A DNA stretch of 64,000 nt, taken from positions 1,550,001-1,614,000 of the forward strand of contig NZ_CP099546.1 of NCBI RefSeq assembly GCF_023973145.1. Direction: 5' to 3'. Every line of letters begins with the position of its first letter. Position 1 is the stretch's first letter. The stretch comes from Natronosalvus vescus. GTDB lineage: Archaea > Halobacteriota > Halobacteria > Halobacteriales > Natrialbaceae. Both the position numbers and the translations under genes were made by a program. Shown here piece after piece: positions 34,139 to 45,395 of the stretch. The notes under the pieces were generated by a model, which worked only from the letters and a program-made list of their open reading frames with translations, had not been told where the DNA came from and did not search any database.

Positions 34139-35179
34139 CTACGAAAGCACGGCGTAGATGTTCGCTTCGTAAACGGATCGAACACGGTCACCCCAGTCGT
34201 GGGTGTAGGTGTCGATCACGTCGCTCGCGACGTCTCCACGCAGGTACTTGACGATCCCTCGATCACCCGTCCGATCCCGGAGGTGTGTCGTGAAAAAGTG
34301 CCGGAAGTAGTGGGGGGTGACGTTCTCTGTCGCCCCACCGCCCCTCCGATACCACCCCCGTTCTCGAGCGTGTCGTTCGACGATATAGCGGACGTCGGAT
34401 GGCTCGAGGCGTTGCCCCCAGCTATCGCCGGTGTCGAGAAATAACGGATCGGCCGGTGAGACGGGGTCAGGTCGGATGGCCAGCCAGGCTTCCAGCACCG
34501 TATCGAGTTCGCTATCGACTGGTATCACCGTCTCGCGCTTCCGTTTGTTCGAGGCGGTTCGCGTTTCGCCGTTGACTGCCACACCGCGGGCCGGTTTCTC
34601 GTCGACGTACAGCGATCGTGGTCTCGCCTCGAGTTGTACCCGTGGCGTCCACTCGCGGTCGATTCCCTCGAGTTCGACGTGCAGATCCCGCAAATCGAGG
34701 TTGCACAGTTCACCGACACGCATCCCCGTTTTGAGAAGGGTGACGATAACCGCTCGCTCGAGCGGATGGCAGATGTCGGCGACGAACGCTCGCATTTCGG
34801 GGATCGAAATCTCCCGTCTGGTAGGGTTGGTGTCGATCGATTCGCCCATCTCCTCCATTACCAGGGACATCGGATTCCCCTCGAACGCCTCCACGCGGGT
34901 CATATAGTCGTAAAATCGATGGACGTAGGAAGCGTACGTTGCGATCGTACTCGAGGCCAGTCGGCCACGCAGGGAGTGAACCCAGGCCATACACTCCCGT
35001 CGGTTCGCCTCCCGGAGGCTGATTCCCGACCCCTCCTCGAGAAAGGCCTCGAACTGCCGGAGGACGCGCTCGTAGGCGTCGATGGTTCGCTCACTCTTGC
35101 CGTGATACTGTTGTTCCTCGAGAAAGTAGGCAATCGGATCCTCGGAAAGCGCGTCACCGTCGAGCGATTCAGTTGCCAT
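34139..35179 (-). CDS. tyrosine-type site-specific recombinase (integrase)
   Basis: 346 residues from the ATG at 35179 (an ATG at 35188 adds three). Residues about 12-105 are a SAM-like core-binding domain (AYFLEEQQYHGKSERTIDAYERVLRQF). The catalytic domain has Arg154 in KTGMRVGEL, His290-xx-Arg293 in TPHYFRHFFTTHL and the likely nucleophile Tyr325 in VIDTYTH. The Lys-bearing hairpin region is long and charged (TASNKRKRETVIPV). It overlaps the upstream DUF5805-type gene. No tRNA gene, the usual attachment site, is near. Confidence 0.92.
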   Translation of the reverse strand: MATESLDGDALSEDPIAYFLEEQQYHGKSERTIDAYERVLRQFEAFLEEGSGISLREANRRECMAWVHSLRGRLASSTIATYASYVHRFYDYMTRVEAFEGNPMSLVMEEMGESIDTNPTRREISIPEMRAFVADICHPLERAVIVTLLKTGMRVGELCNLDLRDLHVELEGIDREWTPRVQLEARPRSLYVDEKPARGVAVNGETRTASNKRKRETVIPVDSELDTVLEAWLAIRPDPVSPADPLFLDTGDSWGQRLEPSDVRYIVERHARERGWYRRGGGATENVTPHYFRHFFTTHLRDRTGDRGIVKYLRGDVASDVIDTYTHDWGDRVRSVYEANIYAVLS

Positions 35180-35561
35180 CGGTATCACCGATGAGTGTGT
35201 ATCCGCCGTGCCGACCGCTGTATCGAATTCGGTTGTTGGTCTGGAGTTCGTCGAGGGTGTTCTCGAGCTGGGTTTCGATATCGTCGCTCACCGCCTCGAG
35301 TAATTGTTCCCACGAGTAGGTGTCGGAACGAAGGAGTTCGAGCACCTGTGTTTCGAGGCCGTTACCCCTTGGGGTAGCGTCCGGAGAACGGGGTTCCTCA
35401 GCGGGCGATTCGAACCCCGCTCGCCCGGCTTGTACCATAGTTCTGATATACTCGCTCTGGCTCATACCGAGGTCGTCAGCGTGTTCCTCCCAGGTAGATT
35501 TCTGGTAGGCTGGAACGTAGGTTCTGACGACGACGGTCTCCGTATCGAGATCGTCATCCAT
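35169..35561 (-). CDS. DUF5805-type small protein coupled to the integrase
   Basis: 130 residues from the ATG at 35561 (MDDDLDTETVVVRTYVPAYQKSTWEEHADDLGMSQSEYIRTMVQAGRAGF). The first 50 residues look like a ribbon-helix-helix or CopG-type DNA-binding unit. The second part (LETQVLELLRSDTYSWEQLLEAVSDDIETQLENTLDELQTNNRIRYSGRHGGYTL) looks like a small winged helix. The gene overlaps the recombinase start by 11 nt. It may be a recombination directionality or expression factor; that is inference. Confidence 0.8.
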   Translation of the reverse strand: MDDDLDTETVVVRTYVPAYQKSTWEEHADDLGMSQSEYIRTMVQAGRAGFESPAEEPRSPDATPRGNGLETQVLELLRSDTYSWEQLLEAVSDDIETQLENTLDELQTNNRIRYSGRHGGYTLIGDTDGN

Positions 35562-37688: not shown

Positions 37689-37822
37689 CGGTTCGAAACA
37701 GTCCACTTCTTCAGATCCCGCCAAACCGAACCTGACACCCCTCGATTCTGGCGCAGTATACACGACAACAACTGGTCAGAAACCGGCATCTAACAATGTG
37801 GGTGTCGGTCATCACAGCGGAC

Positions 37823-38884
37823 ATGACCACTCCCGGTGACGCTTCGATCGTCTACGTTGGGTGTACCGCGCCCGCACGGGACGTCCTCGAGACGCTCCTC
37901 GAGCGAGGCCTGCCGATCACGTCTGTCGTAACGATCGATCCGGAGATGGCGGACGCGAACGCCGTCTCGGGGTACGCTTCGCTCCGGCCGACGGCAGAGA
38001 ATTACGACCTCCCCGTCTACTACCCGAGCACGTATTCGATGGACGGGGAGGCCGACCTGGATCACTTCCAGACCGTCGATCCCGACCTGATGATCGTGAA
38101 CGGCTGGCAACGGCTGATTCCCGAATCGATCCTCGAGACGACGACGCACGGGGCCCTCGGCAATCACGGCAGTGCCTTTGGCCTCCCGAAAGGGCGAGGG
38201 CGCTCGCCCCTGAATTGGTCGCTGATCGAGGATCGGGATCGCTTCCTGCTCTCGGTGATTCGACTGGATCCGGGCGCTGACTCGGGCGACGTCGTGACGA
38301 GTCGTAAATTCGACATCACGCGCCACGACACCATCCAGACGCTCTACTACAAGGTCACGATGCTGCTCAAGGAGATGTTGCTCGAGGTCGTCGACCCGAT
38401 TCTCGCGGGTGAACGTCCGTTCGAACCGCAGTCGGGTGAACCGACCTACTACCCGAAGCGAAACCCCGAGGACGGCGAGATACACTGGGAAAACGGGACG
38501 CAGGAGATATACAACCTCGTTCGGGCGGTCGCGGCCCCCTATCCCGGCGCGTTCACCCACGCTGGCGGCGAACGGGTTATGATCTGGGAGGCGATTCCCT
38601 TCTCCGCAGATATCGAGGCGACGGCCTCGGCCGGATCGATCGTCGAGGTGTTCTGGACGGGTGAGTTCGTCGTCGCGACTGCTGATGGCACGCTACTGGT
38701 GCGAGCGTGGGAGGCCGGCGACTGGCAGCCCGCGGTCGGCGACCGGTTCGACTCACGGGGCGAACCCGACCGAGTCGATCGCCCACACCACCACGAGAAT
38801 CTCGCGAGCGATGGTGGAGTGGTTGACGAGCCACCGTCGGAGAAGGCCGTCGTCGACGACGCGACGGGTGATCTCGATGCCTAA
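37823..38884 (+). CDS. formyltransferase-family protein
   Basis: 353 residues from the ATG at 37823 (MTTPGDASIVYVGCTAPARDVLETLLERGLP). The formyl-transferase core (residues about 5-210) shows VDPDLMIVNGWQRLIPESILE and the active-site stretch GALGNHGSAFGLPKGRGRSPLNWSLIED, with Asn and His at the usual positions, then GADSGDVVTSRKFDI. A Fmt C-terminal-like beta domain follows (WENGTQEIYNLVRAVAAPYPGAFTHAGGERVMIWEA). Archaea do not formylate Met-tRNA, so a sugar amine is the more likely acceptor. The gene overlaps the deacetylase-like gene by 8 nt. Confidence 0.85.
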   Translation: MTTPGDASIVYVGCTAPARDVLETLLERGLPITSVVTIDPEMADANAVSGYASLRPTAENYDLPVYYPSTYSMDGEADLDHFQTVDPDLMIVNGWQRLIPESILETTTHGALGNHGSAFGLPKGRGRSPLNWSLIEDRDRFLLSVIRLDPGADSGDVVTSRKFDITRHDTIQTLYYKVTMLLKEMLLEVVDPILAGERPFEPQSGEPTYYPKRNPEDGEIHWENGTQEIYNLVRAVAAPYPGAFTHAGGERVMIWEAIPFSADIEATASAGSIVEVFWTGEFVVATADGTLLVRAWEAGDWQPAVGDRFDSRGEPDRVDRPHHHENLASDGGVVDEPPSEKAVVDDATGDLDA

Positions 38885-39587
38885 CTGTGCCTCCCTCGGC
38901 ACACTCTCGTACACCCTCGAGGAGTACGAACGGCTCCTGCAATCGCTGCGATCGGATGGCTTTTCGTTCAGGAAATTCGGTCGACGGCTCGAGCGAGACG
39001 AGGTCGTCGTTCGCCACGACGTCGACCTCTCCCCGACGAGAGCGCTGGAGATGGCTCGGGTCGAAGCCGCCCTCGACGTCCAGTCGACGTACTGTCTGCT
39101 GGTGACGACGCCGATCTACAACTTACTCGAGGTCGACCACTCCCGAGCATTAGCGGAGATTCAGGCGCTCGGCCACGACGTTGCCGTGCACTTCAACAGC
39201 CACCACTACTGGGACGGGCAGCCGACTGAGGACGAACTGCGCACGCAGGTGCGAGCAGAGTGTGACGTCCTGGGGGCGATCATCAACCGCCACGTCGACA
39301 CCGTTTCCTTCCATCGTCCTCCGGAGTGGGTGTTAGACGTCGACTTCGACGGGTTCGAGAACACCTACCAGCCGGCGTACTTCTCGGAGATCGAGTACCG
39401 ATCCGATTCGAGACAGAAGTGGCGCACCGAACCGCCGTTTCCGGAGGGACGGCCCGATCGGTTACAACTGCTGATACACCCGGGACTGTGGGGTGAGACG
39501 CCTCGAGAGATGGCCGACATCGTCGCCGACCTCGAGACCAAACAGCGAACGCACGTCGAGCGCTATCTCGACGGGCTCGGCGTGTGA
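38877..39587 (+). CDS. polysaccharide-deacetylase-like protein
   Basis: 236 residues from the ATG at 38877, inside the last codons of the formyltransferase gene. EVVVRHDVDLSPTRALEMARVEAALDVQSTYCLLV is the NodB-type start with the metal-binding Asp pair HDVD. HDVAVHFNSHHYW holds the paired His residues and HRPPEWVLD a later active-site segment; LQLLIHPGLWG ends the barrel with another His. It probably removes an acyl group from a sugar or related amine. Coupling to the formyltransferase suggests one removes an acetyl group and the other adds formyl. Confidence 0.85.
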   Translation: MPNCASLGTLSYTLEEYERLLQSLRSDGFSFRKFGRRLERDEVVVRHDVDLSPTRALEMARVEAALDVQSTYCLLVTTPIYNLLEVDHSRALAEIQALGHDVAVHFNSHHYWDGQPTEDELRTQVRAECDVLGAIINRHVDTVSFHRPPEWVLDVDFDGFENTYQPAYFSEIEYRSDSRQKWRTEPPFPEGRPDRLQLLIHPGLWGETPREMADIVADLETKQRTHVERYLDGLGV

Positions 39588-39609: not shown

Positions 39610-40551
39610 TCAGGAAACGGCAACCTCGAGTTCGCTGTCGGTTTCGATGCCGGCCAGGAGCGATCGAATCGCCGCGACAGCCGTATTTGACGACGTCTCA
39701 GCCGCGTTTTCCATCAACACCGTCTCGCTGGGGAACAGGCGTTCGCCAAGGAGCAGCCCGTGTTCACTCGCGGTCGAGCCGGTAACAGTGAGATAGATGC
39801 CGACACCCGTGTCCACGATCGATCGTTCTTCTTCCAGCCCGTCGTCAGGATACTGAAAGTCGATCCCCTCGAGCGCCCTCGTCCCGAGGACGGCTCGAAC
39901 CAGTCGTTCGTAGCGCGGCGTGATACACAGCGACCCCGAGTAGTCCTCGAGGAACGTCCGGTCGATAGGGTCGCTCGAGGGTGCGGTTTCGGGCGTCGCC
40001 ATGAGCGTGTGATAGACGGTGTCGCCGAGCCCCGCGACGACTTGCACGTCCGTATCCGCGGGATCGATCCGCGCGTTGATGTCCGCGATTCGCTCGAGTG
40101 GGTCGGCCTGAAGTGCGACGACTTCCTCGAGCACCAGATCCGCGCTGTCGAATCCGAGGGCGAACTCGTGGGTTCTGAGTGCGCGAAACGGTTCCTCTCG
40201 GCCGACGAGGACGAGTTCAGATCCCGGTGAGATGCCGTCCACATCGATTCCGTCGAGCGGTATCGAGACGCTATCGAAGACGATCCGGCGAGGTTTTCCG
40301 GCGCGGTCGTCCCGGAGCAACGTGTACTCGGGAGCAAACGGGTCGTCGGTCGTGCTGTAGGTGGCGAGGCGATGGTAGACGTCCGACTGCGCTGGTTCGA
40401 CGGTGCCTTTCGTGACGGCCTTCTCGTGTCGGAGTGTGGAGGTGATGTCGTCGGCGAGAGCCGGGACGTCGAGTCGTCGAGCCACCCAGTCGAGTACCGA
40501 CTCGAGGGGCCGACCCTTGCGCGGAACGGCAATTGGAATACGCTCGCCCAT
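39610..40551 (-). CDS. HisG-fold protein of unknown function
   Basis: 313 residues. The start IPIAVPRKGRPLESVLDWVARRLDV resembles the HisG N-terminus (IAVPNKGRL). ALRTHEFALGFDSADLVLEE matches the HisG region VADLGITGxDLV, and SIVDTGVGIYLTVTGSTASEHGLLLGERLFPSETVLMEN matches the phosphoribosyl-binding loop region (DIVxTGxTLxxNGL, then SSAxLI). The canonical DLVSTGTTL-type loop is changed, so ATP phosphoribosyltransferase activity is doubtful. It is probably a paralogue that binds a phosphate or ligand. It converges with the deacetylase gene. Confidence 0.6.
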   Translation of the reverse strand: MGERIPIAVPRKGRPLESVLDWVARRLDVPALADDITSTLRHEKAVTKGTVEPAQSDVYHRLATYSTTDDPFAPEYTLLRDDRAGKPRRIVFDSVSIPLDGIDVDGISPGSELVLVGREEPFRALRTHEFALGFDSADLVLEEVVALQADPLERIADINARIDPADTDVQVVAGLGDTVYHTLMATPETAPSSDPIDRTFLEDYSGSLCITPRYERLVRAVLGTRALEGIDFQYPDDGLEEERSIVDTGVGIYLTVTGSTASEHGLLLGERLFPSETVLMENAAETSSNTAVAAIRSLLAGIETDSELEVAVS

Positions 40552-40659: not shown

Positions 40660-42525
40660 TCACTCGGAGAACATCGAACCTAACTGGTCGCGCCACTCCG
40701 TGAGATCGGTGACGTCCGCGCTGACGTCCTCCAGGTCGGCCTCGAGATCGTCGACGTCGTCCTCGAGCGAGCCCATATCGGCTTCAATATCGTCGACATG
40801 ACCCTCGAGCGAACCCAGATCGACGCCGAGATCCTCGACGTCGTCGGCCACGTCGCCGAGGTCGGTCTCCAGCGAATCGACGTCGGACTCGACGTCCTCG
40901 AGTGCCGATTCGACATCGGTAACGCTCTCGCTGACGTTCTCGAAGTCGCTCTCGAGGGTCTCGGTTCGGTCGTCGACGGCCTCGACAGCAGTCGCGTTTG
41001 CCTCGACGGTGTCGACGGTTTCGTCCAGTTGCTCCTCGACCGTGGCCAGATCGTCTTCGAACGTCGACACCTGCGTCCTGAACTCCTCGATCAGCTGTTC
41101 GCCGGTACCGTTGTCGTCGAGGAACGATTCGAGGGCACTCGTGTAGGCCGCGAGTTCGTCGACACGCGACTGGAGGTGGTCGATCTTTGCCTGGTCGCTG
41201 CCCGACAGTCCCGTCTCTGTCGCCCCCGAGTCGCCCCCGGTATCGCCCTCGACGTCGAGCGCATCTCGAAGCGTCTCGAGATCCGCATCGGAGAGATCTC
41301 CTTCGCGAATTTCGGCGGCGAGACGAGCACCGAGTGCGGGCCGGTCTCCGCCCGTAGCCGCCGTGTCGCCGTCTGCGGTCGGCGTTTCGGACGCTTCCAC
41401 ACCGTCGTCAGCGTCGGCGGATGCCGATTCCGCGGCCGTGTCAGCACTCGAGGCTGCCTCTTCGAGGTCGAGTTCGATTTTTGGTGGCTCGTCTGCGTCG
41501 TCGGTGATCTCGTCTGCGTCGTCGGTGATCTCGTCTGCGTCGTCGGCGACCTCGTCTGCGTCGTCCGTGGCCGCTTCCTCGTCCTCGCCCTCGCCTTCGC
41601 CCTCGAGGTCGAGTTCGATCGTTGGGGGCTCCTTCTCGTCGACCGCTTTGTCATCGGCTGGCGGAATTTCGTCGTCCTCGAATCCGAGATCGATGTCGGG
41701 CGTCTCCGCTTCGTCCTCGTCTGCGTCGTCGACTGGTTCGGGGTCGGTCTCGACGTCTTCCAGATTGAGGTCGAGTTCCTCCTGGCCGAGGAACGACTCC
41801 TCGTCTGCGTCCGCTTCCTCCCCGCTTTCGAGGCCAACTTCCTCGTCCTCGGTGTCGTCATCCTCTGCGTCGTCCGCCCCTGTGTCCGCTTCGCCCTCAA
41901 GGTCGGCTTCGTCGTACTCGAGGTCGGTGTCCGTTGTGTCCGCTTCGGCAGTCGTTTCATCAGCGTCCGCGGTCTCGCCGGCGTCGTCGGCCGCATCGGT
42001 GTCGTCCTCCTCGTCCTCGTTGTCAGCAAGCCCCGGCACCCCATCGGACTCGCCCGAAAGCATGTCCTTGACGACCTGGTTGCTATCGTCGGCGATGATG
42101 TCCTCGATCATCGTATCCTCGAGGTGGTCACCGTCTGCTTCCACCGTCTCGTCATCGTTCGAGTCGACGACGGTTATCGTCGGTTCGGTGAGAAACGACG
42201 CCGGATCGGTGTCGTCGTCCAGGCGGATACCGTAGACGGTGACGAGGGGTTCCGCGGGATCGATCTCACCGGTGAACTCGACGTGGTTGTCCTGGAAGGC
42301 GGTCCACTGATCGCTGTGGTACTCCGGGTGGAACCCGACGCTATCCATCGGGAACGACTCCGGGATGTCTTCGGAGAGACGCACGGTGGCCACGTCGTCC
42401 GTCGTCGTTTCGATTTCGAAGCGAATCGCTGGAACCGGGAACTCCTCCGCCGTGTAGGTCTTCGTTACCGTAATCCCACCCGCTTGCACTTCCACCACAT
42501 CGTCTGCGTCCGCGGTACTGCTCAT
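40660..42525 (-). CDS. large acidic coiled-coil protein, haloarchaeal
   Basis: 621 residues. Residues 1-115 form a compact beta-rich domain (VEVQAGGITVTKTYTAEEFPVPAIRFEI, then VTVYGIRLDDDTD). Residues about 150-430 are a huge Asp/Glu/Ala/Thr linker with IELDLE units. It contains four 21-bp tandem repeats at 41488-41571 that encode DADEITD heptamers. The C-terminal 170 residues are coiled coil (VDDRTETLESDFENVSESVTDVESALEDVESD) with seven-residue spacing. This is a tethering or scaffolding layout; no enzyme motif is seen. No signal peptide is present, so it is cytoplasmic. Confidence 0.85.
   Translation of the reverse strand: MSSTADADDVVEVQAGGITVTKTYTAEEFPVPAIRFEIETTTDDVATVRLSEDIPESFPMDSVGFHPEYHSDQWTAFQDNHVEFTGEIDPAEPLVTVYGIRLDDDTDPASFLTEPTITVVDSNDDETVEADGDHLEDTMIEDIIADDSNQVVKDMLSGESDGVPGLADNEDEEDDTDAADDAGETADADETTAEADTTDTDLEYDEADLEGEADTGADDAEDDDTEDEEVGLESGEEADADEESFLGQEELDLNLEDVETDPEPVDDADEDEAETPDIDLGFEDDEIPPADDKAVDEKEPPTIELDLEGEGEGEDEEAATDDADEVADDADEITDDADEITDDADEPPKIELDLEEAASSADTAAESASADADDGVEASETPTADGDTAATGGDRPALGARLAAEIREGDLSDADLETLRDALDVEGDTGGDSGATETGLSGSDQAKIDHLQSRVDELAAYTSALESFLDDNGTGEQLIEEFRTQVSTFEDDLATVEEQLDETVDTVEANATAVEAVDDRTETLESDFENVSESVTDVESALEDVESDVDSLETDLGDVADDVEDLGVDLGSLEGHVDDIEADMGSLEDDVDDLEADLEDVSADVTDLTEWRDQLGSMFSE
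41488..41571. repeat. four tandem 21-bp repeats inside the acidic linker
   Basis: The unit begins CTCGTCTGCGTCGTCGG. Copies one and two are identical; copies three and four differ at a few positions. The length is a multiple of three, so copy number can change without a frameshift and would only alter the linker length. Confidence 0.85.
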
Positions 42526-42705: not shown

Positions 42706-43539
42706 CTAGAGCTCGACCCGGTCACCGATCTCGACGATCTCGAGGCGGCGCGGGTGCTCGAAACTCTTCGCGTGGTGGTGGAGCGCCTTCGGATCGGCGG
42801 TCAACCCGCGCCACATGTCCCAGTGACTCGGTAGCAGCCGCTCGAGTTGCAACGCCGAGGCGCACTCGATTATCTGGTTCTCGTCGTTGTACCAGCGGGT
42901 ACGAACCGGTTCGCGGGTCTCCTTGTCGGGGACGGTGCCAACCGTCCCGAATGCGAGAATGCCGAGGTCGATGTCGTAGTGCTCGCCCAGACGGTCGAAC
43001 TCGTCGGTTGGTTTCGTGTCCCCGCCGTGGAAGATCGTCCCGGCGTCGTGCTCGAGCACGTAACTGACCGGGTGCGTCGCGTCCGGATCGTGTGCCGGTT
43101 CGACGTGCAGGGTGAACTCGCCGATCTCGAGCGTGTCGCCTTCGGTGACTTCCGCGAACTGGTCGTCGGTGACGTCCCAGTTGTCCGTCCAGGCTTCTTC
43201 CTCGCGGGCAACGGCGAGGCTGTCGTCGGGGGCGTACAGCGTGGCGTCGGAGGCGGCCAGCATCGGTGCCTGGCTCGGCCCGTGGACGTGGTCGGTGTGT
43301 TCGTGGGTCGCGAGAACGGCGTCGGCGTGGTCAACGTCTTCGGGATCGAACGGGACGGGAATCATCCGAACCGTTCGCGGCGGATCGCCGAGTCCGAGGT
43401 AGGGATCGATGTAGATCGTCGTTCCCTCGCTCCCTTTTATTGCAAAGCCGTTACAGCCGAGGTACCAGACCGCCACTCCGTCGGGATCTGTCGATTCGAT
43501 CGCGCGCGTGAGCCAGTCTCCCCAGTCGCTCGTTGACAT
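42706..43539 (-). CDS. UlaG-like MBL-fold metallo-hydrolase
   Basis: 277 residues. GVAVWYLGCNGFAIKGSEGTTIYIDPYLG is the UlaG-type start, ATHEHTDHVHG the metal motif (HxHxDH), and IFHGGDTKPTDEFDRLGEHYDIDLGILAFG carries the bridging Asp. The C-terminal LLPSHWDMWRGLTADPKALH gives the last His. UlaG opens L-ascorbate-6-phosphate lactone; the haloarchaeal relative may act on another lactone or phosphodiester. It stands alone. Bases 43540-43791 between it and dph2 show no gene. Confidence 0.88.
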   Translation of the reverse strand: MSTSDWGDWLTRAIESTDPDGVAVWYLGCNGFAIKGSEGTTIYIDPYLGLGDPPRTVRMIPVPFDPEDVDHADAVLATHEHTDHVHGPSQAPMLAASDATLYAPDDSLAVAREEEAWTDNWDVTDDQFAEVTEGDTLEIGEFTLHVEPAHDPDATHPVSYVLEHDAGTIFHGGDTKPTDEFDRLGEHYDIDLGILAFGTVGTVPDKETREPVRTRWYNDENQIIECASALQLERLLPSHWDMWRGLTADPKALHHHAKSFEHPRRLEIVEIGDRVEL

Positions 43540-43791: not shown

Positions 43792-44847
43792 TCACCAGGT
43801 GCCGTGGAACGTGTCGAACTCGAGGCTGTCGAGCGGTTCGTTCCCGACGGCGATCTCGTACTCACCGGGGGTGAGCATCGGCTTGTGGAACCGCGGCCCG
43901 TCGTCGGTCGTGATCCGGGGACAGCCGGTGTTGACGAAGGCGTCCATGTCGAAGTTGCGCAGGCGGTCGGGGGTGACCTCGTCCATCGTGATGAGGTAGG
44001 CGTCGTCGTTGTCCGCGAGGATGTCCTGGGCGATCTCCCAGCGCCCCTGACCGATCTTGGTACAGAAGATGACGCCCCATTTCTGGGCGTCCATCGCCCG
44101 GTGGACGGCACCGTAGCGTTGTTTCATGAACTTCTCCGTGTCTGCGACGGTCACGACGTTGTTGACCGGATCCGCGATGACGACGTGTTTGTCGGGATGT
44201 TCCATCGCCAGACCGAGCGGGTGAAACTTCCCGCCGCCGACGTAGAGAACCTGATCCGCGGGCACGTCCGCGCTCGCGTAGTTACAGCCGAGCACCTGCC
44301 CCTCGTGGGTCAGTCGGTCGTCGCCGCGACGGGTCTCGACGTCGTACCCGCGATCCTCGAGGAACTCGCGCATCTCCGAAAAGCGGTTCATGTGCTGGGC
44401 GGTGGTGACGAGGCCGATCTCGGGAGTCTCCTCTGGTGGCTCGAGCGTCTCTAACGATTCCTCGATGATCGGCGTGACCTCGACGTTCGAGAACAGGGGG
44501 ACGTAGATGACCTTCTCCGTGTCCTTCATCGGCGAGTGACCGAAGTGGACGAACACGTCGGTGCGTTTCATCAGGAAGGTGTCGAGGTCACAGGCCCCGT
44601 AACAGGGTTGCCCCGACAGCATGATCGTGACGTCATCGTCGACCAGTTCTCGGAGATCGTCGGCGACGCTCGGGCCGCGTCGCTTCAATCCTTCGGGGAA
44701 CTGCAGGCCGATCTTTTTCGCGTCGCGCTCCTCGACGGCATCGATGATTCGCTCGAGTTCGTAGTCCCACTCCCGGTCGTGTTTGAGGGCCATCCCCGTC
44801 TTCCGGAGGTCTCCCTCGCTGTACTCCGACTCGTACTCCTGGCTCAT
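43792..44847 (-). CDS. dph2: diphthamide biosynthesis enzyme Dph2
   Basis: 351 residues from the ATG at 44847. KIGLQFPEGLKRRGPSVADDL is the family start. The three cluster cysteines stand in PCYGACDLDT (Cys86), VLGCNYAS (Cys188) and VNTGCPRITTDD (Cys309). Archaeal Dph2 uses this [4Fe-4S] cluster for a noncanonical radical-SAM transfer of 3-amino-3-carboxypropyl to His of elongation factor 2. It is divergent from the YlbF gene. The partner diphthine genes are outside the window. Confidence 0.95.
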   Translation of the reverse strand: MSQEYESEYSEGDLRKTGMALKHDREWDYELERIIDAVEERDAKKIGLQFPEGLKRRGPSVADDLRELVDDDVTIMLSGQPCYGACDLDTFLMKRTDVFVHFGHSPMKDTEKVIYVPLFSNVEVTPIIEESLETLEPPEETPEIGLVTTAQHMNRFSEMREFLEDRGYDVETRRGDDRLTHEGQVLGCNYASADVPADQVLYVGGGKFHPLGLAMEHPDKHVVIADPVNNVVTVADTEKFMKQRYGAVHRAMDAQKWGVIFCTKIGQGRWEIAQDILADNDDAYLITMDEVTPDRLRNFDMDAFVNTGCPRITTDDGPRFHKPMLTPGEYEIAVGNEPLDSLEFDTFHGTW

Positions 44848-45008
44848 TGTCCCTGTTTGCGGGTGCGGACGTAAAACGACGCGGGTTTGGACGTCCCTCG
44901 AAGGTGGACGTGTCTCGGGGGTGCACTCGTCTCGAGGTGGTATCGAGACACGCCCGGGCAGGACTCCTGATCCGCCAGTTTGAAACGGGTTCCGCCCAAA
45001 GCAATGGT

Positions 45009-45395
45009 ATGAGCGTCGAGACCACCCCCACCGAACCTGACGTCGAAGCACTCGGAGCAGCACTCGGCGAAGCGATCAGGGATCTCCCCGAGTACGAGGC
45101 GTTCGAAGCCGCACAACGTACCGTCGAGAACGACCCAGATGTCCAGTCGAAGATTTCGACGTTCGAACGCATCCGCCAGGAGTTCATGATGGCTCGCCAG
45201 ACCGGGACGGCCTCCCAGGAGGATCTCCAGGAGCTCCAGTCGACCCAGGAGGAACTGCACGCGATGGAGCCGATGGCCGAGTTCCTCGAGGCCAAGAGCG
45301 AACTCGCACAGCGCCTCGAGTCGATCAACAGAGCGATCTCGGAGCCGCTGGCGGTCGATTTCGGTGGGGAGGCGGGCGGCTGCTGTCAGGACTGA
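45009..45395 (+). CDS. YlbF-family regulator
   Basis: 128 residues from the ATG at 45009. It is almost wholly helical, with GEAIRDLPEYEAFEAAQRTVENDPDVQSKISTFERIRQEFMMARQ typical of the YlbF/YmcA (Com_YlbF) family. In Bacillus this family controls RNase Y; the archaeal role is open. The tail GGEAGGCCQD carries a vicinal Cys pair that could bind a metal. The gene diverges from dph2. Confidence 0.85.
   Translation: MSVETTPTEPDVEALGAALGEAIRDLPEYEAFEAAQRTVENDPDVQSKISTFERIRQEFMMARQTGTASQEDLQELQSTQEELHAMEPMAEFLEAKSELAQRLESINRAISEPLAVDFGGEAGGCCQD

Follow-up and report, generated by a model that had tools for sequence, protein, structure and literature searches.

The window, a stretch of 64,000 nucleotides, comes from a haloarchaeal genome that consists of a single contig of 3.84 Mb. 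We found on its minus strand, at 39610..40551, an open reading frame of 313 amino acids (ATG at 40551, stop codon at 39610-39612), which was characterized by means of its orthologues, an AlphaFold2 model and fold searches and is referred to here as the HisG-like gene. Directly upstream of it, in the window and in many relatives, lies a gene for an acidic coiled-coil protein of 621 amino acids (40660..42525, minus strand). Further upstream there is an MBL-fold metallohydrolase of 277 amino acids (42706..43539, minus strand), which among named families comes closest to UlaG (L-ascorbate-6-phosphate lactonase) and to UPF0173, with every score under the curated cut-off. The next gene of this conserved block is dph2, involved in diphthamide synthesis (43792..45063, minus strand). 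The coiled-coil protein has a conserved N-terminal domain of ~130 amino acids, and no Pfam match was obtained there. On the 3' side of the HisG-like gene, at 37796-39587 of the plus strand, we observed a formyltransferase-like gene and a gene weakly similar to deformylases/deacetylases; since their clusters were present in just 6 of 81 loci, they look like a local insertion. A tyrosine-recombinase-like gene at 34139-35188 (minus strand), whose cluster was present in 54 of the 81 loci, is a conserved haloarchaeal integrase.

The hydrolase cluster was detected in 75 of the 81 loci and always shared the strand of the HisG-like gene (the other six loci are L026, L033, L054, L068, L072 and L074). 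In 88 of 101 genomes with the HisG-like gene, the best hydrolase match was located no more than 8 kb upstream in the same orientation, with a median gap of 1.86 kb, and in 13 it lay elsewhere. In 5 of those 88 the hydrolase almost adjoined the HisG-like gene, with 71-133 bp between them. The hydrolase was present in 140 of 146 genomes, many of them without the HisG-like gene, therefore it must serve a separate function; none of the 6 genomes without hydrolase carried the HisG-like gene. At this frequency co-occurrence is uninformative and only synteny is informative. The N-terminal domain of the coiled-coil protein was found in 124 of 146 genomes, sometimes twice or more, and also in several genomes without the HisG-like gene. 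The gene had been read from its letters as lying outside a histidine operon, and this was borne out: a search run without a positive control identified no homologues of HisG, HisB or HisI (E 1e-5) within 5 kb in any of the 81 loci, and the neighbours identified in the window were dph2, the metallohydrolase, the coiled-coil gene and the deacetylase-like gene.

The HisG-like gene was present as one orthologue per genome in 101 of 146 Halobacteriales genomes, and in 99 of the 122 with completeness of at least 90%. The orthologues from the 101 genomes were 59-76% identical to the window protein (self-match excluded). A search of its own genome up to E 10 revealed no second copy or near relative. 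The full-length alignment of the window protein with 28 diverse orthologues contained 105 invariant columns, therefore we consider the open reading frame real. In this 29-member alignment 16 of the 28 arginines and lysines of the protein were invariant, as would be expected if its pocket accommodated a ligand with several charges. A separate scan, of named genomes, yielded 267 candidate stretches with 217 relatives; the 80 that we kept were all from haloarchaea, as judged by title. For conservation counts we used 103 distinct orthologues, namely the window protein, 80 of the 217 relatives and 22 from 30 loci; they are the best-scoring ones, so distant members are under-represented among them.

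When 294 genomes sampled from the phylum were searched with a profile, 46 of the 47 matches lay within Halobacteriales. The sole match outside the order was short (49 positions, E 2.9e-4) and fell on the true HisG gene of genome G217, thus within the genomes searched the family is confined to Halobacteriales. The gene is dispensable. It was missing from 45 of the 146 genomes overall, and in two genomes, G087 and G128, the hydrolase, coiled-coil and integrase-like genes stood in the usual order with only the HisG-like gene missing (in G087 dph2 was visible too, at the edge of the stretch). In 8 stretches from the 45 non-carrier genomes, chosen by hand and including those of G087 and G128, a maximum-sensitivity profile search of open reading frames of at least 50 amino acids detected no remnant (best E 1.8). 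The one plasmid-collection record that holds the gene annotates it as 'hypothetical protein'. Among the papers listed for HisG, haloarchaea, paralogues and H. volcanii ATP phosphoribosyltransferase, no title or abstract opening deals with the family.

We obtained AlphaFold2 models of the HisG-like protein, the best of which had a pLDDT of 86 and a pTM of 0.80 (the five models spanned pLDDT 68-86). For the canonical HisG of the same organism, a second model had a pLDDT of 91. In a Foldseek search against PDB, HisG took rows 1-49 among the best 50 matches (E 3e-7 to 4e-5). In VIA-align rows 1-35 were all HisG catalytic domains, with Z of 11.4-14.2, while the next protein had Z of 9.3; the global superposition was loose, with rmsd of 3.5-4.7 A over 193-215 residues. 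A comparison of the secondary-structure listings of the HisG-like and own HisG models gave 19 core elements in common order, one of them only three residues long. By the fold searches and the element order alike, the predicted structure settles the fold of the protein as that of the HisG catalytic domain. The sequence-only reading had proposed a HisG-fold paralogue, to be refuted if a fold search found no HisG match; the match was found, and with it a distinct canonical HisG in the same genome, 219 kb from the HisG-like gene, so this is not the only HisG of the genome.

By sequence alone the protein would be called weakly HisG-like. With the Pfam HisG model (PF01634) the window protein scored 12.5 bits against a curated cut-off of 25.5, and every relative for which a score was given stayed below the cut-off as well. 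The model matched 27 of 29 members at E of at most 1 (best 6.7e-4), and several orthologues reached E of at most 1e-3 in whole-genome searches. In genome G084 a PF01634 match of comparable strength fell outside the HisG-like gene, therefore we regard these scores as near noise. An NCBIfam search with the protein gave no match, and phmmer against PDB sequences gave noise only (plastocyanin, E 0.048). The HMM-HMM comparison of the family with archaeal HisG scored 30.8 in local and 19.0 in global mode. The maxima of 100 column-shuffled controls were 27.7 and 9.1, respectively, so that all 100 were below the real score, and the reversed control scored 18.2 and 2.9. The HHalign probability was just 16%. 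Since the HMM-HMM score exceeded 100 of 100 shuffles, the resemblance to HisG is greater than chance. We thus confirmed that the open reading frame is a real gene and that its likeness to HisG is beyond chance.

We further compared single residues with those of 31 archaeal HisGs (the organism's own and the 30 best-scoring from the phylum profile search). Residue numbers were mapped via an alignment with Psychrobacter HisG, in which R32, R56, K57, R73, C115 and D179 come out as numbered in the literature. For the central part the map follows the order of predicted secondary structure, without superposition, and automatic alignments treat this part otherwise: it was misplaced when MAFFT merged the two families, and the global hhalign path differs. 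On this map R32, R56, R73, D94, E163 and the TGxT loop of Psychrobacter HisG correspond to R14, R88, R118, D138, E241 and T257-T260 of the HisG-like protein. All 103 orthologues have K12, R14, R88, R118, D138, E241, G258, S259 and T260, and 102 of them have T257; S259 aside, the counterparts were present in 31 of 31 archaeal HisGs, apart from the last threonine of the loop (30 of 31) and its first residue (serine in 26, threonine in 5).

Fold, element order, KGR motif, equivalents of R56, R73, D94 and E163 and TGxT loop are thus common to the protein and to the catalytic domains of HisG (PF01634, EC 2.4.2.17). K12 and R14 form the KGR motif of HisG within the N-terminal PRKGRPLE (residues 10-17; 40501..40524, minus strand). 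R88-R89 (40285..40290, minus strand) occupy the site of HisG R56-K57 by the order of secondary structure and are conserved in 103 of 103 orthologues, and R118 (40198..40200, minus strand) occupies the site of R73 according to the models and conservation. The equivalents of all three catalytic arginines are therefore found throughout the family, those of R56 and R73 by predicted secondary structure. As stated in excerpts of PMC9734150, R56 of one HisG subunit extends over the dimer interface to the PRPP pyrophosphate, and the R32A and R56A changes in Psychrobacter HisG lower activity 25- and 42-fold, respectively; R73 touches the gamma-phosphate of ATP, as given in an excerpt of PMC10795190.

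The phosphoribosyl loop (residues 249-264; 39760..39807, minus strand) contains G249, Y253, T257-G258-S259-T260, A261 and H264, as judged from conservation and from hhalign, which pairs the loops of both families. Residues 252-267 read IYLTVTGSTASEHGLL. All 31 archaeal HisGs have an aspartate, D176, four positions ahead of TGxT; its place is taken by Tyr253 in 103 of 103 orthologues, and hhalign independently aligns VYLT to VDLT, in line with this change. L184 is replaced by Ala261 in 103 of 103, N187 by His264 in 96 of 103 and D172 by Gly249 in 102 of 103. In the numbering of the own HisG, L164 becomes alanine and N167 mostly histidine, both being present in 31 of 31 HisGs. All 103 orthologues carry an aromatic residue at the position of C115, where 30 of 31 archaeal HisGs have alanine; the strand there reads GDTVYHT in the HisG-like protein. 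The threonine of the HisG ATE motif (T116 in own numbering, 31 of 31 in HisGs) is variable in the family, and D76 (own-HisG D52, 31 of 31 in HisGs) matches glutamate at the position matched. The catalytic loop had been described from the sequence as altered, and the letters given for it were exact. Its aspartate, leucine and asparagine are replaced by Tyr253, Ala261 and His264, but the description was overstated, since the loop still has its phosphate-binding TGxT core and the protein its catalytic arginines. As a whole, the earlier reading is partly supported.

The HisG-like protein differs from HisG also in its outline. Between helix 1 and strand 2 (residues 28-87; 40291..40470, minus strand) its model has two extra helices and a strand in comparison with the own HisG. 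There are 61 residues after helix 1 in the HisG-like protein and about 13 in HisG, and the stretch is rich in invariant charged residues (T39, E43, K44, T47, K48, R80, D81 and R83 are invariant in it). A second insertion comprises residues 144-168. The C-terminal regulatory domain is absent: the model ends at the core helix 290-300, whereas the own HisG has elements at 210-278 (by position). Short-form HisG of Psychrobacter arcticus and Lactococcus lactis likewise consists of the catalytic core only, without C-terminal domain, and aligned with Z of 11.4-13.4; in the PDB rows listed these proteins have ~200-230 amino acids, compared with 313 and insertions here. As it lacks the domain that senses histidine in long-form HisG, the HisG-like protein is probably not under histidine feedback control.

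HisG is normally viewed as one enzyme with one job. A canonical HisG was present in 99 of the 101 genomes that carry the HisG-like gene, and 41 genomes have HisG without the HisG-like gene. The two carriers without HisG above the cut-off, G079 and G132, both have HisB and HisI. G079 is a draft of 120 contigs, and the missing hisG is likely an assembly gap. G132 is a single contig, 97% complete, with HisB and HisI above the cut-off, an intact HisG-like gene and a best HisG match that stays sub-threshold (E 7.2e-4); the lack of hisG rests on the whole-genome Pfam HisG search, and G132 itself was read in a few stretches (L184, at C1:1130000-1138000, L169 and L176). Judged by its gene content, this genome speaks more strongly than anything else for a histidine role, and the HisG-like gene may for this reason have a part in histidine synthesis.

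Taken together, we suggest that the family is a diverged branch of the HisG fold (type IV phosphoribosyltransferases), most likely an enzyme whose substrate is PRPP or another phosphoribosyl compound of that kind and whose acceptor is not ATP; we put the probability of this reading at roughly 0.55. Its role lies probably outside histidine synthesis. The protein would dimerise as HisG does, and the retained TGST loop would grip the 5'-phosphate of PRPP or of a closely related phosphoribosyl compound. Pyrophosphate would depart with the help of R14 and of R88, the latter from the partner subunit, and R118 would hold a negatively charged acceptor. We infer that this acceptor would not be ATP in its usual pose, given the exchange of Asp, Leu and Asn in the HisG loop for Tyr253, Ala261 and His264 and the altered strand at the C115 position. 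We are more tentative, at somewhat less than even odds, about the wider picture, in which haloarchaea across the order would have a phosphoribosyltransferase, or an enzyme for phosphoribosyl ligands, that uses an acceptor different from ATP; it would be a second branch of the HisG fold and perhaps work with the neighbouring UlaG-like sugar-phosphate metallohydrolase.

The change of aspartate to tyrosine in all 103 orthologues could equally mean that phosphoribosyl transfer was lost. The protein would then be a non-catalytic sensor, in which the HisG cleft binds PRPP or a nucleotide without transfer and reports the ligand to the coiled-coil neighbour. The gene is closely linked to the coiled-coil gene and not to a set of enzymes from a single pathway, which agrees with this, and so does its dispensability, both between conserved neighbours in two genomes and across the 45 that lack it. 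A mere binder, however, would not need the leaving-group arginines that are kept in 103 of 103 orthologues, and no DNA-binding or signalling domain was detected above noise (winged-helix matches were at chance level in 5 of 29 members, best E 0.023). We therefore regard a sensor as unlikely, though it is the alternative that we take most seriously. We find it doubtful to a greater degree that the protein is a second ATP phosphoribosyltransferase for histidine, for example an isozyme free of feedback. Such a role would explain G132, and in excerpts of the Psychrobacter HisG literature the loop acid D179 is dispensable, with kcat just ~4-fold lower without it. The residue replaced by tyrosine is D176 and not D179, however, and the G132 copy carries the tyrosine and alanine of the family. 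The canonical HisG also present in nearly all carriers, the 41 genomes that manage with HisG alone and the 81 loci free of HisG, HisB and HisI homologues argue against an isozyme as well.

Descent from HisG might itself be questioned. The type II periplasmic-binding proteins (EgtU, OpuBC and others) share the overall architecture and come next after HisG in the structure ranking, with Z of about 9, and the sequence similarity to HisG is weak; the protein could accordingly belong to that fold, with a convergent loop and an unrelated small anion as ligand. These proteins score below HisG, however, with a gap between 35 HisG rows at Z of at least 11.4 and the next one at 9.3, and on a reading of its sequence the HisG-like protein has no evident export signal. 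The KGR, RR, R, D, E and TGxT elements follow in HisG order in the secondary-structure-based mapping, and the HMM score surpassed all shuffled controls. We consider convergence very improbable. If the reading as a phosphoribosyl enzyme is true, the HisG fold was re-used for another reaction, with the leaving-group arginines and the phosphate loop kept and the loop aspartate changed to tyrosine, and haloarchaea would possess an undescribed step that consumes or senses PRPP. We know of no earlier job of the HisG fold outside histidine synthesis. For annotation, a weak HisG match in haloarchaea need not be HisG.

We also followed possible links to known phenotypes and pathways. In excerpts of the respective papers, an H. 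volcanii transposon mutant in HVO_1153, a 'hypothetical protein', needs proline (PMC4300041), HVO_1153 is listed as 'function unassigned' and dph2 of H. volcanii is HVO_1631 (both PMC8305020). In two Haloferax-genus genomes the HisG-like gene lay 6-7 kb from dph2, thus the H. volcanii orthologue should be found a few numbers from HVO_1631. Presumably it is about HVO_1626, an estimate that leans on the position of a MinD gene. HVO_1153 is excluded as a member of the family by the dph2 synteny, unless this synteny is broken in H. volcanii. HVO_1625 to HVO_1630, HVO_1150-1152 and HVO_1154-1156 were not named in the literature searched, and from HVO_1632-1637 only HVO_1634 was among the matches listed. 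RuBisCO of the AMP pathway was present in 32 of the 101 genomes with the HisG-like gene and in 13 of the 45 without it (Fisher p = 0.85); we thus observed no co-occurrence, and this link was rejected. In a Haloferax-type genome, G394, a SLOG/LOG-like gene lies near the HisG-like gene (L156, 4244-4777, minus strand); it matches TIGR00725 above the cut-off and weakly resembles cytokinin riboside monophosphate phosphoribohydrolase.
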